Origin: Flavihumibacter sp. CACIAM 22H1
GTDB lineage: Bacteria; Bacteroidota; Bacteroidia; Chitinophagales; Chitinophagaceae
Assembly: GCF_001601815.1 (NCBI RefSeq)
Contig: NZ_LUKG01000019.1
Span: forward strand, 1-32,864
DNA: 32,864 bases
Direction: 5' to 3'
This document shows, piece after piece, positions 23,697 through 28,391 of this stretch. Below the pieces are notes generated by a model. The model ran no database searches, was not told the DNA's origin, and saw only the letters and a program-made list of their open reading frames with translations. A program made the position numbers and the translations under genes. Every line of letters begins with the position of its first letter. The first letter of the stretch is position 1.

Positions 23697-23726
23697 AAGG
23701 CGGGATTCCGATCCCGCCTTCTTTAT
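23697..23726 (+). terminator. Rho-independent terminator after the TonB receptor
   Basis: AAGGCGGGAT (23697-23706) and ATCCCGCCTT (23711-23720) form a perfect 10-pair stem with a TCCG tetraloop, followed by CTTTATT. It closes the gpmI-to-receptor unit. Confidence 0.85.
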
Positions 23727-23783
23727 TACACATAGTGTAGTTACAAGAAAAATTCCCTAAATTACAAGAGTATAATCCCTCAT

Positions 23784-24362
23784 ATGACGGAAGAAGCACT
23801 CCTGCAAGGTTGCATAAACAACGATCCAATGGCGCAAAAAGAATTGTACCATAAGTATAATTCCAAGATGCTGGCGGTATGTTATCGTTTTGCGCACCAC
23901 CGTGAAGATGCGGAGGATATGTTGCAGGAAGGCTTCATTAAAGTATTTTCCCAGATCCATACGTTTCGCGCTCAGGGAGCGCTGGAAGGCTGGATCAGGA
24001 GAATTATGGTGCATACCTGTATCAACCATCTGAAGCGCAACAAGAAGTTTAATGAAAATGTCGATCTGATTCACGCCACCGGTTTGCAGGTCAGGGAGGA
24101 GTCGATTCCATCCATAGTGCAGGCAAAGCAGGTTATTGAATGTATCCGAATGCTGCCTATAGGGTACCGGACCGTTCTGAACCTCTATGCACTGGAAGGA
24201 TATTCGCACAAGGAGATTGCGACCGTACTCGACATTGAAGAAAGTACAAGTCGTTCTCAATATACCCGTGCCCGTCAGATGCTTGAAGAAATCCTGGTTA
24301 AGAGAAAAATTATGGCTAAACCCCAGGATAAAGTGTCATTATTAGCAGCGTTTGGACGCTAA
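23784..24362 (+). CDS. ECF-type RNA polymerase sigma factor (second system)
   Basis: The 192-residue protein has sigma region 2 (about 20-88: ELYHKYNSKMLAVCYRFAHHREDAEDMLQEGF, split here as YHKYNSKMLAVCYRF and EDAEDMLQEGFIKVF, plus GWIRRIMVHTCINHLKRN) and sigma region 4 (about 115-175: IRMLPIGYRTVLNLYALEGY and the helix-turn-helix HKEIATVLDIEESTSRSQ). It differs clearly from the sigma factor at 8426 and no FecR gene follows. The next gene encodes a membrane protein with a cytoplasmic head and a barrel-like C terminus, the likely partner. It lies directly after a terminator and therefore heads a new transcription unit. Confidence 0.93.
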   Translation: MTEEALLQGCINNDPMAQKELYHKYNSKMLAVCYRFAHHREDAEDMLQEGFIKVFSQIHTFRAQGALEGWIRRIMVHTCINHLKRNKKFNENVDLIHATGLQVREESIPSIVQAKQVIECIRMLPIGYRTVLNLYALEGYSHKEIATVLDIEESTSRSQYTRARQMLEEILVKRKIMAKPQDKVSLLAAFGR

Positions 24363-24422
24363 TAGTACTCTTAGTATGGGGAAGGGTTGGAAAAAGTTCA
24401 GGTATCCCTAACCGGAAGAGAA

Positions 24423-25889
24423 ATGGAGCAACAATTTTTTGAGGACGAATTTGAGCAGTTTCTTCGTGAAAATGCTGATCAACACAGGATGTATCCTTCC
24501 GATGGGGTGTGGACCAATATTTACCGCAGGTTTCACCCCGGAAAAAGGAGAACGATGATCGCCATACTGCTGCTGCTGGTTCTGTCAGGTGTATTCTGGC
24601 TGGCCACCCATACCGTATTACCGCACCGGCAAGCAAAATACCCGGCTTCTTCTTCAACAGAAAATACCGATTTTCACCAGCATTTTTCCTCCGTTACGGT
24701 GGATGATATTATTGAAAAGCTTCGGGCCAAATCATTTATGCCACCGTTGACAATTGAAGCACCGGTAGCTCTTAAACCATTGAGCATTTCGCGCGAACTT
24801 CGCCCCTCCCTGGTAACCATACCCACCATCTTCTCCGCTAATTTTGGCTATGCCAGCCAGTTTTCCATGTCGCATTGGGATTTGGTACTACCCCGCCTTA
24901 CCCTTCCTGTATACAATTTATTCAGCTTACCGGTTCGCCCGCTTAACCCAGACCTGGTTACTGCAAGGGCTGCTGTTCCCAACGAAGAAGAGCTATCCGC
25001 AGATCTTTCTTCGATCGCTGCCTCAGACAATATGGAAACCGCACTGCCCCCTTCCCTGGAACAACTTAATAAAGTAGCGGCGCAACCCTCAATTCAAAAA
25101 AACAGGCCCTTCTCTCATCCGCCAATTTCTGCGCCAGCGGTGGTGGTTCCGTCCGCCCGGCATAAAAATAAATGGGAAACTTCTTTTCATTTTGTTCCAT
25201 CAGTTGGATACAGGAACCTCTTTGAAAGCAGGAACTGGATAACTTATGGCAACTCACCCCTCATGGTTAGCCGGCTGAATGTTAACCAGTTTGTAGATCA
25301 TAAACCAGCCATTGGTTTTGAACTGGGCGGCGGTATGCGATACCGGCTGAACCGTTCACTTGTATTGAAAACAGGTCTGCAACTGAACCTGACCAGGTAC
25401 AGCATCGGTGCTTTTGCGCACCCCAAGGAAAGAACCATGGTTGCCCTCAACCCAAGCCTGGGCTTCCGGCCAGATACTCTGATCACCACCTCCAATATCC
25501 GCAACCTAGCAGGTAACCGACCAGCCCGTTTGCATAATGCCTATTTGCAGATATCCATGCCGATTGGTGCAGAGTTGAAACTTTTTGGCGATGAACGGCT
25601 CCAGGTAAACCTTGGAGGTTCTCTTCAACCAAGCTACCTGCTGAACACCAACCAATTGCAATTGAGCGGCGATTTCAGCAACTATGTGAGCGAACCCTCC
25701 CTGCTGCGGCGCTGGAACCTGGCCAGCAGTATGGAAGTTTTTGTTACCTACAGATCGGGTAAGGTGAACTGGCAAATTGGTCCGCAGTTCCGTTATAACC
25801 TGCTATCCACCTTTAAGAAAGAATACCCCATCAAGGAAAACCTGATGGAATACGGCCTTAAAATCGGCATAACTCACCCGCTTCGTTAA
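24423..25889 (+). CDS. Single-chain transmembrane protein with cytoplasmic head and C-terminal outer-membrane beta-barrel-like domain
   Basis: The protein is 488 residues from the ATG at 24423; a TTG at 24387 would add 12 residues and is less likely because the relatives I recall begin MEQxFF. Order of parts: cytoplasmic acidic head (1-42, EDEFEQFLRENADQHRMYPSD), one transmembrane helix (about 45-62, MIAILLLLVLSGVFWLA), a long Pro/Ala/Ser-rich periplasmic stretch (about 65-248), then about 240 residues of alternating strands and turns (GFELGGGMRYRLNRSLVLK, QISMPIGAELKLFGDERL, VNWQIGPQFRYNLLS) resembling the PorT-like 8-strand barrel family. It ends THPLR and lacks the usual terminal aromatic residue. 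The head could hold the sigma factor encoded 60 bases upstream, in place of an anti-sigma factor. Function is inferred only. Confidence 0.8.
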   Translation: MEQQFFEDEFEQFLRENADQHRMYPSDGVWTNIYRRFHPGKRRTMIAILLLLVLSGVFWLATHTVLPHRQAKYPASSSTENTDFHQHFSSVTVDDIIEKLRAKSFMPPLTIEAPVALKPLSISRELRPSLVTIPTIFSANFGYASQFSMSHWDLVLPRLTLPVYNLFSLPVRPLNPDLVTARAAVPNEEELSADLSSIAASDNMETALPPSLEQLNKVAAQPSIQKNRPFSHPPISAPAVVVPSARHKNKWETSFHFVPSVGYRNLFESRNWITYGNSPLMVSRLNVNQFVDHKPAIGFELGGGMRYRLNRSLVLKTGLQLNLTRYSIGAFAHPKERTMVALNPSLGFRPDTLITTSNIRNLAGNRPARLHNAYLQISMPIGAELKLFGDERLQVNLGGSLQPSYLLNTNQLQLSGDFSNYVSEPSLLRRWNLASSMEVFVTYRSGKVNWQIGPQFRYNLLSTFKKEYPIKENLMEYGLKIGITHPLR

Positions 25890-25958
25890 TTTTTCACCAC
25901 GCTGTTGTCGCCGGTGGGCTATTACCCGACCGGTCAAAAGGATTACGTAATTTCGTGT

Positions 25959-26558
25959 ATGCAATGTTTAAATCGAGTGTTTTACCTGGCCGGACCAGCA
26001 ATGCTGGTGATCGCATTATCAGGTGGTTGTAATGAGCCTGCTAAAATCTCTGAAAAGCAAGCCGCTACCAGTACACCTTTCCCTATTGCCGATTATATCC
26101 GGTCGCAGCTCCAGGAAATAGATTCGCTTCAGTTACCGGTAACGCTGTACCGCACAGGCGCAGAAGGAAATGATACTACCCTGCTTTCAACAAAGGATTG
26201 CCTTGAGTTAGCTAGGCCCTTTACCGAACCCGATATTGCCAAACCAGACGTAGCCAGCCATTTTACAGAAAGCAGTTTTGCAGATCAATCAATACCCAGT
26301 ATCACTTTCAACTACTTGTCAAAAGAGGAAACAATGCCCCTGAAAAGAGCGGATGTGGTACTGCAACCCAACCCATCCGTTTCAGACAAGGTTCGTAGCA
26401 TTTATCTGGAAAAAGCCTTTTCAATCGGAGATACACTTGTGCAGGAAAAACTTTTCTGGAACGATGGACATTATTACCAGATCATCCGGACGAAATCTGC
26501 AGGAGCCTCCAACCCCATTCAATCCACCCTTAAAGTAGTTTGGGACCCAACCGAATAA
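25959..26558 (+). CDS. Predicted lipoprotein of unknown function
   Basis: From the ATG at 25959 the product is 199 residues with a lipoprotein signal ending LSGGC, Cys24 being the lipidated residue. An upstream TTG at 25905 would add 18 residues that do not look like a signal peptide, so I reject it. The mature part is acidic to neutral with YIRSQLQEIDSLQLPVTLY and two repeated-looking strand regions later (YLSKEETMPLKRADVVLQP, EKLFWNDGHYYQIIRTK). I do not recognise a family. It follows the barrel protein by about 70 bases and precedes uvrC by 3 bases, so it may belong to the sigma-factor cassette and share a transcript with uvrC. Confidence 0.75.
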   Translation: MQCLNRVFYLAGPAMLVIALSGGCNEPAKISEKQAATSTPFPIADYIRSQLQEIDSLQLPVTLYRTGAEGNDTTLLSTKDCLELARPFTEPDIAKPDVASHFTESSFADQSIPSITFNYLSKEETMPLKRADVVLQPNPSVSDKVRSIYLEKAFSIGDTLVQEKLFWNDGHYYQIIRTKSAGASNPIQSTLKVVWDPTE

Positions 26559-26561
26559 GGA

Positions 26562-28391
26562 ATGACTGCCGCAGAATTTCAACAACTAGCTTCCACTATC
26601 CCACTATCGCCGGGTATTTATAAATACTTCGACAGTAGCAATACGTTGTTATATGTTGGTAAAGCCAAGAGTTTACGCAAACGGATCAGTTCTTATTTCT
26701 CAAAAACATTTACCAGTTACAAAACCCATGAACTGGTGCAGCGCATTGCCCGTATTGAATTTACGATCGTAGACTCCGAACAGGATGCATTTTTACTGGA
26801 AAATGCCCTGATTAAACAATACCAGCCCAGGTACAATATAGACCTGAAAGACGATAAAACCTACCCCTATCTTGTCATCAAAAAAGAACCTTTCCCCCGG
26901 GTATTTTTTACCCGACAAAAAATCAACGATGGCTCTGAATACCTCGGCCCCTTTACTTCCGTGGGCAAAGTCCGCGAACTACTGGACTTTATCAAACTGA
27001 CTATTCCGCTCAGAACCTGCAAGCTCAACCTGAGCAGTGCCTCTATTCAGAAAGGAAAATATAAAGTTTGCCTCGAATATCATTTAGGTAATTGCAAAGG
27101 CCCCTGTGAAGGCCTTCAGACAGAAGAGGACTACCGCGAGGGACTACTGCAATTAAGAAACCTCATGAAAGGCAACCTGGGGCCAGTTATGCAACAATTC
27201 AAACAGGAAATGCAACTGCATGCCACTAATCTCCGGTTTGAAAAAGCAGAAATGATGCGGCGCAAACTGGAATACCTTGAACAATACCAGTCCAGGTCAG
27301 TAATTGTGAGTAAACACCTGGGCAACCTGGATGTTTTCTCCATTTTAAAAGAAGGCGATATTGCTTATGTTAATTACCTGATGGTACAACATGGCACGAT
27401 CGTACAAACACATACCATACAGTTGGAAACCCATCTGGATGAAACAGAAGAACAGGTATTGCGTTATGCCATCGGGCAATTGCGGGCCTCCTTTAACAGT
27501 TTAGCCGATGAACTGATTCTACCCTTTGAATTACCCGAGTTTCAGGAAGAAGCAATTGAAGAAGAAGTACGCACGATTACCGTTCCAAAAGCCGGAGATA
27601 AAAAAAAGCTCCTGGACCTTTCCCTCAAAAACGTAAATTATTTCAAGGACGAGATCCGAAGAAAAAAAACCTTACATCTCGAAGGGAAGTCCGATTTCGA
27701 AAAAAAACAGGTACTCTACCAGTTAATGGAAGATTTGCAGCTGCCTGAATTGCCTGTTCATATAGAATGCTTCGACAATTCCAATTTCCAGGGTGCCTTC
27801 CCGGTTTCGGCCATGGTATGTTTCAGGGAGGGCATCGCCAGCAAAAAAGACTACCGCCATTATAATGTAAAAACAGTGGAAGGCATTAACGATTTTGCCA
27901 CCATGAAAGAAGTAGTTACCAGGCGGTATAAACGGCTAAAAGACGAGCAGGCCTCCCTTCCTCAACTGGTAATAATCGACGGCGGAAAAGGCCAGTTAGG
28001 AGCTGCTATGGAAGCCATCCATGACCTTGAGTTAACAGGTAGCATGACATTGGTTGGTTTGGCAAAAAATGAGGAAGAGCTATTTTTCCCGGGCGATTCT
28101 GATTCGCTTCGTTTACCCTATAACAGCGAATCCCTTAAACTGATTCGTCGTATCCGCGATGAAGTACATCGATTCGGCATTAGTTTTCACCGCAACCAAC
28201 GTAGTAAAGGAACTTTTAAAAACGAACTGGAAACTATACCGGGTATCGGAAAATCAACCGCCACCCGATTATTACGGGTTTTTCGCAGCATTGCTCAAAT
28301 CCGCGAAAAAACAATGGAAGAACTGGAGCCGGAAGTAGGCAAAGCGAAAGCAAAACTGGTTTACGACTATTTTAATGGTACGAATGCCTGA
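26562..28391 (+). CDS. uvrC: UvrABC excision nuclease subunit C
   Basis: UvrC makes the two cuts on either side of DNA damage once UvrB has been loaded. The 609-residue protein has the full layout: GIY-YIG nuclease (about 15-95: LSPGIYKYFDSSNTLLYVGKA), a cysteine cluster near 145-188 ending CKGPCEG, a UVR domain (about 205-240: FEKAEMMRRKLEYLEQY) for UvrB contact, the RNase H-like C-terminal nuclease (ECFDNSNFQGAFPVSAMV and VIIDGGKGQLGAA) and tandem helix-hairpin-helix motifs near the end (LETIPGIGKSTATRLLR). No part is missing. It lies 3 bases behind the lipoprotein gene. Confidence 0.97.
   Translation: MTAAEFQQLASTIPLSPGIYKYFDSSNTLLYVGKAKSLRKRISSYFSKTFTSYKTHELVQRIARIEFTIVDSEQDAFLLENALIKQYQPRYNIDLKDDKTYPYLVIKKEPFPRVFFTRQKINDGSEYLGPFTSVGKVRELLDFIKLTIPLRTCKLNLSSASIQKGKYKVCLEYHLGNCKGPCEGLQTEEDYREGLLQLRNLMKGNLGPVMQQFKQEMQLHATNLRFEKAEMMRRKLEYLEQYQSRSVIVSKHLGNLDVFSILKEGDIAYVNYLMVQHGTIVQTHTIQLETHLDETEEQVLRYAIGQLRASFNSLADELILPFELPEFQEEAIEEEVRTITVPKAGDKKKLLDLSLKNVNYFKDEIRRKKTLHLEGKSDFEKKQVLYQLMEDLQLPELPVHIECFDNSNFQGAFPVSAMVCFREGIASKKDYRHYNVKTVEGINDFATMKEVVTRRYKRLKDEQASLPQLVIIDGGKGQLGAAMEAIHDLELTGSMTLVGLAKNEEELFFPGDSDSLRLPYNSESLKLIRRIRDEVHRFGISFHRNQRSKGTFKNELETIPGIGKSTATRLLRVFRSIAQIREKTMEELEPEVGKAKAKLVYDYFNGTNA

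Follow-up and report, generated by a model that had tools for sequence, protein, structure and literature searches.

A probable Dma/Reo-type envelope-sensing sigma/anti-sigma operon in Flavihumibacter sp. CACIAM 22H1

A stretch of 32,864 nucleotides from Flavihumibacter sp. CACIAM 22H1 (assembly GCF_001601815.1, contig NZ_LUKG01000019.1, positions 1 to 32,864 of the forward strand), referred to here as the window, carries a gene for an extracytoplasmic function (ECF) sigma factor, followed by genes for a single-chain putative anti-sigma protein and for a predicted lipoprotein. This locus is in all likelihood an envelope-sensing sigma/anti-sigma operon of the Dma/Reo type, belonging to a Flavihumibacter-like bacterium and working as proposed below. 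The coordinates and gene order reported by an initial annotation, made from the sequence alone, hold for the three genes:

23784..24362, + strand: ECF sigma factor, 192 amino acids, Das-like (Pfam, sigma tree)
24423..25889, + strand: Dma/Reo-like dual-membrane-spanning putative anti-sigma factor, 488 amino acids
25959..26558, + strand: predicted lipoprotein, 199 amino acids, start ATG 25959, without a Pfam family

The same annotation had proposed that the second gene encodes one polypeptide anchored in the inner membrane and reaching the outer membrane, and knew of no named system with this design. The one-chain design is supported by its conservation, by its adjacency to sigma genes and by published precedent, whereas its novelty is lost, since the available parts of three reports describe this kind of layout for dual membrane-spanning anti-sigma factors, a family named Dma or Reo (PMC13088901, PMC9308784, PMC13114119).

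For the anti-sigma protein, the most likely start is ATG 24423 and not the listed TTG 24387, because its homologues begin at the same methionine. Four parts are distinguished along the chain:

24423..24551, + strand: cytoplasmic head (residues 1-43) with the motif ADQHRMYPSxxVWxxI and two short helices predicted
24552..24608, + strand: transmembrane helix, residues 44-62
24612..25169, + strand: periplasmic linker, residues 64-249, poorly conserved
25170..25886, + strand: C-terminal domain of OMP_b-brl_2 type (residues 250-488), with about eight strands predicted

The mean pairwise identity among 27 proteins was 51% in the head, 30% in the transmembrane helix, 17% in the linker and 46% in the C-terminal domain. 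The head had been called acidic, which is true of its first approximately 20 residues, but not of the whole, as the net charge over 43 residues is -1 and a basic stretch precedes the helix. The single transmembrane helix that had been placed after the head was recovered at residues 44-62, with a Kyte-Doolittle value of 2.37 against 1.01 for the next best stretch, and its position is kept, with the most hydrophobic 19-residue stretch beginning at residue 43-50 in 27/27 homologues (Kyte-Doolittle values from 1.46 to 2.88, the weakest in locus L027). The long linker rich in Pro, Ser and Ala was likewise found, comprising about 186 residues with 40% Pro, Ser, Thr and Ala, and varying in length from 137 to 223 residues across the 27 proteins; in an AlphaFold model that was poor overall, its predicted local distance difference test (pLDDT) values were 25-40 per block. 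Neither the single anti-sigma protein nor its 27-row profile found a solved relative by sequence in the PDB.

An inner-membrane helix, a long linker and a barrel-like domain would physically join the two membranes, and it could be argued that the chain is a tether first and a switch second, pinning the outer to the inner membrane while the sigma factor reports tether loss. A poorly conserved linker that varies in length as described is unsuited to a fixed-distance tether, and a regulator of a sigma factor is generally expected at low copy number, so that this explanation is considered very improbable.

The C-terminal domain is likely an outer-membrane barrel, as judged from family matches and a structural model. 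Of the 27 homologues, 21 gave an OMP_b-brl_2 match at E<=0.01, as did seven of the 10 distant homologues, out of 22, that were scanned with Pfam. The low-confidence AlphaFold model placed strands at residues 252-265, 296-308, 312-325, 375-388, 392-405, 427-442, 448-463 and 471-487, which gives eight strands between 252 and 487 only if 375-378 and 381-388, separated by a gap at 379-380, are counted as one. In the same model, short and long strand connections alternate, as in a small outer-membrane barrel.

Homologues of the anti-sigma protein are common among the relatives of the host. They were present in 27 of 59 relatives, own genome counted, and in 132 of 195 Chitinophagaceae genomes (E<=1e-10), in agreement with the initial expectation that similar proteins abound in this family. 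In a class-wide draw the profile matched 79 of 395 Bacteroidia genomes (E<=0.001), and in a draw confined to the own phylum it matched 28 of 296, all of the same class. The association with ECF sigma genes, which had also been anticipated, held for every Chitinophagaceae locus examined: the gene immediately upstream, in the same orientation, encodes a sigma homologue in 27/27 loci and in 47/47 distinct Chitinophagaceae loci (the 60 best-scoring loci fetched minus 13 duplicates by sigma sequence). Among the loci of the class search, 27/29 had a sigma homologue (20/22 outside Chitinophagaceae), and the remaining two, L078 and L080, had none within the stretch examined. The layout cannot be ascribed to chance, because homologous loci again have the head and the C-terminal domain in a single reading frame next to a sigma gene.

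These data bear on an alternative explanation, in which the protein is an ordinary outer-membrane protein, the hydrophobic stretch is its signal sequence and the sigma gene is a mere neighbour. The resemblance of the C-terminal domain to a common type of outer-membrane protein would fit such a proposal, and a single hydrophobic helix close to the N terminus might serve as a signal. However, the 43 residues ahead of the helix are the best-conserved part of the protein, the helix position is kept, some relatives carry the head as a repeated unit and the sigma gene is adjacent in every one of the 47 distinct loci, which makes this alternative very improbable.

The repetition of the head was observed in distant relatives, where a unit of approximately 31 residues recurs ahead of the transmembrane helix, which then lies at residue 80 or 137. 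Two copies were found in L084 and four in L085 and L088, while L096 has four by eye and three scored stretches. Each of these loci has a sigma homologue upstream, and L085, L088 and L096 come from one genus. Repeated heads possibly provide multivalent sigma binding, and relatives with two or four heads would offer a direct handle on the binding partner of the head and on its ratio.

The sigma protein itself exceeded the Pfam cut-offs for Sigma70_r2, with E 1.7e-16, and for Sigma70_r4_2, with E 1.5e-15. In a tree of 55 sigma sequences, 33 sigma factors partnered with Dma-like proteins and four other sigma factors of the own genome formed one branch with support 100/98, in which the window sigma factor groups with the Dma-partner sigma factors of the class, and the other 18 own-genome sigma factors fell outside it. 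The input to this tree comprised 25 of 30 own-genome sigma loci fetched, the genome having 48 region-4 matches, and 17 of 22 distant loci, and long branches among the own-genome sequences call for caution in reading it.

The four additional sigma factors of this branch belong to loci L042, L046, L047 and L063, in which the sigma gene is followed by a gene for a short protein with a single transmembrane helix, a head of P..W type that by eye resembles the Dma heads, and no Pfam match; these proteins are perhaps a non-barrel cousin class. Additionally, two more pairs of a sigma factor and a head-linker-barrel protein were noticed in the own genome, at L048 (contig C85) and L053 (contig C7), matching OMP_b-brl_2 with E 3.2e-7 and E 1.4e-6, respectively. 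The Dma profile picks up L048 but not L053, whose transmembrane helix is weak.

The third gene encodes a predicted lipoprotein of an unnamed family. Of the lipoprotein relatives, 0/33 match any Pfam family (E<=0.01), including the NigD models that Pfam holds. A PDB search with the lipoprotein profile gave no convincing solved relative (best E 0.069). The lipobox of the window copy is weak (LSGGC) and was missed by the automatic rule, which succeeded in placing both lipobox and start codon for 32 of 41 loci. The other nine were left out of the alignment, except for the window copy, one of the nine, which was added by hand. In the resulting 33 rows the lipobox cysteine is invariant, 32 of these rows having been chosen for possessing a lipobox, and one Pro and two Trp residues are conserved.

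The gene that follows begins 3 nt past the lipoprotein stop:

26562..28391, + strand: uvrC-like gene, named from its sequence rather than from a family search

Searches with tblastn found the lipoprotein after Dma in 41 of the 47 distinct loci and uvrC in 45 of 47, and a profile added the lipoprotein in two of the six other loci (L027 in G027, and L073 in G309, with an internal stop). The gap between lipoprotein and uvrC measured -4 to 37 nt in 37/41 loci, and the four remaining loci had gaps of 96 to 287 nt. This spacing suggests that sigma, Dma, lipoprotein and uvrC genes form one transcript, with the abutment of uvrC hinting at co-expression of DNA repair with the envelope circuit.

RcsF and CpxP are sensing partners in other systems, and the lipoprotein could in a similar manner take part in sensing, binding the barrel or the linker from the periplasm and triggering release. 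Its frequent position after Dma and its conserved Pro and Trp residues would agree with such a role. On the other hand, members of the family are also encoded away from Dma and uvrC, as seen in all 16 regions fetched (L170-L185, representing 15 of 29 matching genomes outside Chitinophagaceae, in other families of the class, and G133 inside), and 15 of these 16 regions lack a sigma homologue, with only a weak one approximately 2.7 kb away in L179; participation of the lipoprotein in sensing is therefore considered unlikely. In L174 and L176 the lipoprotein gene was seen, by eye, after a phosphoglycerate-mutase-like gene.

Two further elements lie upstream of the sigma gene:

23750..23767, + strand: promoter-like element AAATTCCCTAAATTACAA, with 16 nt between its end and the sigma ATG, kept in the genus
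23697..23720, + strand: terminator-like hairpin of 10 pairs (6 G-C) with a T-rich tail, located after the TonB-receptor gene and ahead of the sigma operon

The promoter-like element aligns by eye with the second box of a TGCAGCA-N-TGTCTAAATTACA arrangement of other Chitinophagaceae. A two-box motif, GCAGC-N12-18-GTCN, was found upstream of the sigma gene in 22 of 42 usable loci, mostly as TGCAGCA then TGTCTAAATTACA; from the 47 loci, L105 was excluded due to a sigma gene cut by the contig start, and four others due to having less than 100 nt upstream. A shuffle control over 43 regions, L105 included, with 200 rounds gave a mean of 0.2 and a largest value of 2, figures that are uncorrected for relatedness and concern a motif picked visually from sequences that partly belong to the set. 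Searched across 15 genomes, the strict form produced 16 hits, of which 10 fell at sigma loci; the 6 elsewhere compare with 6 in the reversed control, and three genomes had none. A longer form, searched in 12 genomes with up to two mismatches, hit only sigma loci, 9 times in 9 genomes, and at three mismatches produced 10 hits, of which 1 was at a sigma locus (G017) and 9 were elsewhere, against 5 control hits; no sigma site was found for G021 and G022. In the Flavihumibacter group, each of 6 genomes had a single hit of its element at 0-1 mismatch, always at the sigma locus, and at two mismatches there were 8 hits elsewhere against 25 control hits. In the own genome, the element at 23750-23767 was the sole hit, against one control hit. 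Because the other genomic hits of the motif lie near control numbers, these results suggest autoregulation with a narrow regulon, in which the operon would be its own main target, and a few further weak targets may exist.

The terminator-like hairpin is one of 8 such sites in the region, where shuffles gave a mean of 3.2 with a standard deviation of 2.0. Control by the upstream TonB-receptor gene was rejected as this hairpin intervenes, and additionally no receptor homologue was found in approximately 3.3 kb upstream of the sigma gene in loci L036 and L038.

Several observations weigh against the assignment of the locus to a working Dma/Reo-type operon. The window protein itself scored below the Pfam cut-off for OMP_b-brl_2 (23 vs 27 bits, E 9.4e-5), and three of the 10 distant homologues scanned gave no barrel match. 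The AlphaFold model of Dma with the lipoprotein, built on an alignment of the window and eight close relatives (seven Flavihumibacter and one Flavipsychrobacter), reached a mean pLDDT of only 35.7, too low to demonstrate a closed barrel. In a Foldseek search with this poor model, the top hit was a model of E. coli OmpA (E 1.8e-5), at TM-scores of 0.06-0.10, and the search returned a list mixing barrels with unrelated proteins, which was not counted as fold evidence. The model of the sigma factor with the head, aligned from eight of nine sources (the window and eight close relatives), had a mean pLDDT of 45.2, too low for a reliable contact. On the sigma tree, the label of Dma partner needs three changes and does not form one clean clade. 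As for the motif, its strict form is absent from 20 of 42 loci, including those of the genus of the window, and it does not tell which sigma factor reads it. Finally, the comparison of the window protein with Dma1, Dma2 and Reo was one of published descriptions.

In the proposed working of the Dma/Reo-type operon, the barrel would sit in the outer membrane, the flexible linker would cross the periplasm and the helix would be inserted in the inner membrane, with the small head, on the cytoplasmic side, keeping the sigma factor in an inactive state. A disturbance of the outer membrane, such as damage, failure of barrel assembly or something touching the barrel, would be passed along the single chain, or would expose the chain to cleavage, and the sigma factor would be freed. 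Once released, it would transcribe mainly its own operon, made up of the sigma, Dma and lipoprotein genes together with uvrC, which is counted in because it abuts so closely. Should the promoter-like motif prove to be what it seems, the locus would offer a small circuit for asking how an outer-membrane event reaches a sigma factor along one chain. A stricter proposal, which we regard as rather doubtful, is that of a self-only circuit, where the sigma factor serves essentially its own promoter with lipoprotein and uvrC as outputs, combined with a portable sigma-binding head that is either stacked (up to four) or paired with a short non-barrel tail. Were this true, an outer-membrane signal would raise nucleotide-excision repair via uvrC.

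The founding paper on Dma was reportedly published in the Proceedings of the National Academy of Sciences in 2024, and that on EcfO is said to date from 2013. In the available parts of the Dma report, the layout consists of an N-terminal sigma-binding domain, one transmembrane helix, a long disordered tether and a C-terminal barrel, and the named pairs in Bacteroides thetaiotaomicron are Dma1/Das1 and Dma2 (BT_1558)/Das2 (BT_1559) (PMC13088901). There, the dma2 operon comprises three genes, for a sigma factor, an anti-sigma factor and a protein of unknown function, and the vesicle effect of dma2 deletion depends on das2 (PMC13088901). As far as the accessible text of a 2022 study goes, a Phocaeicola anti-sigma factor was predicted to cross the periplasm and to have a barrel as its outer-membrane domain, transposon insertions in it conferred partial toxin resistance in a sigma-dependent manner, and the toxin BcpT raised expression of the sigma gene 33-fold, with envelope stress proposed as the signal (PMC9308784). 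In these relatives, the sigma regulon is set free when the anti-sigma factor is lost, and the sigma gene responds to a toxin that targets membranes. For EcfO-Reo, the excerpts describe an anti-sigma factor that "spans all five bacterial compartments" and a regulon including NigD lipoproteins (PMC13114119), and the system was induced by antibacterial toxins in Phocaeicola vulgatus, while a response to oxygen or oxidative stress was reported in Bacteroides fragilis (PMC13114119, PMC9308784). The release step is not described, in the available parts of these papers, for Dma2/Das2 (PMC13088901) or for the Phocaeicola pair (PMC9308784), and the corresponding parts of PMC8999054, PMC12596196 and PMC12045153 added nothing on mechanism. 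No account of such an anti-sigma factor for Chitinophagaceae was found within the one open-licence library searched.

In the FecI-FecR system, a TonB receptor with an STN domain takes part in signalling and two proteins share the work. The present locus resembles it in that an outer-membrane signal would reach an ECF sigma factor, but here a single protein would suffice, and the terminator-like hairpin parts the adjacent TonB-receptor gene from the sigma gene. FecR family matches were absent for the Dma-like protein at E<=1 in Pfam and NCBIfam, and two-protein FecR/STN signalling was rejected since neither this protein nor the adjacent TonB receptor showed a FecR or STN family.

The closer likeness is to Dma1/Das1 and Dma2/Das2, with which, as far as their partial descriptions allow, the locus shares the four-part layout, here with a putative sigma-binding head and a likely barrel, and the adjacent ECF sigma gene and, in the case of dma2, a three-gene operon. 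Unlike the Bacteroides systems, it is found in a Chitinophagaceae host, and its third gene encodes a lipoprotein of an unnamed family with uvrC close behind. The role in vesicle formation is, in the accessible text, described for Bacteroides. With EcfO-Reo of Phocaeicola vulgatus and Bacteroides fragilis, the locus has in common, on the same partial descriptions, the order of sigma and anti-sigma genes, the predicted periplasm-spanning chain and its predicted outer-membrane barrel end; it differs in that NigD lipoproteins belong to the described regulon, whereas the window lipoprotein is without a Pfam match. Dma/Reo systems are also characterized by a sigma factor of group ECF21 and by restriction to Bacteroidota; no ECF21 model was among the families listed for the window sigma factor (Pfam, and the best 25 of 109 in NCBIfam). 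By architecture, sigma pairing and sigma phylogeny, the locus is filed as a probable new Dma/Reo member in another lineage, its fresh points being the uvrC linkage, the narrow promoter-like motif and the repeated heads in distant relatives. A two-membrane anti-sigma design named from gut Bacteroides is found here to be widespread in Chitinophagaceae, another bacterial family.

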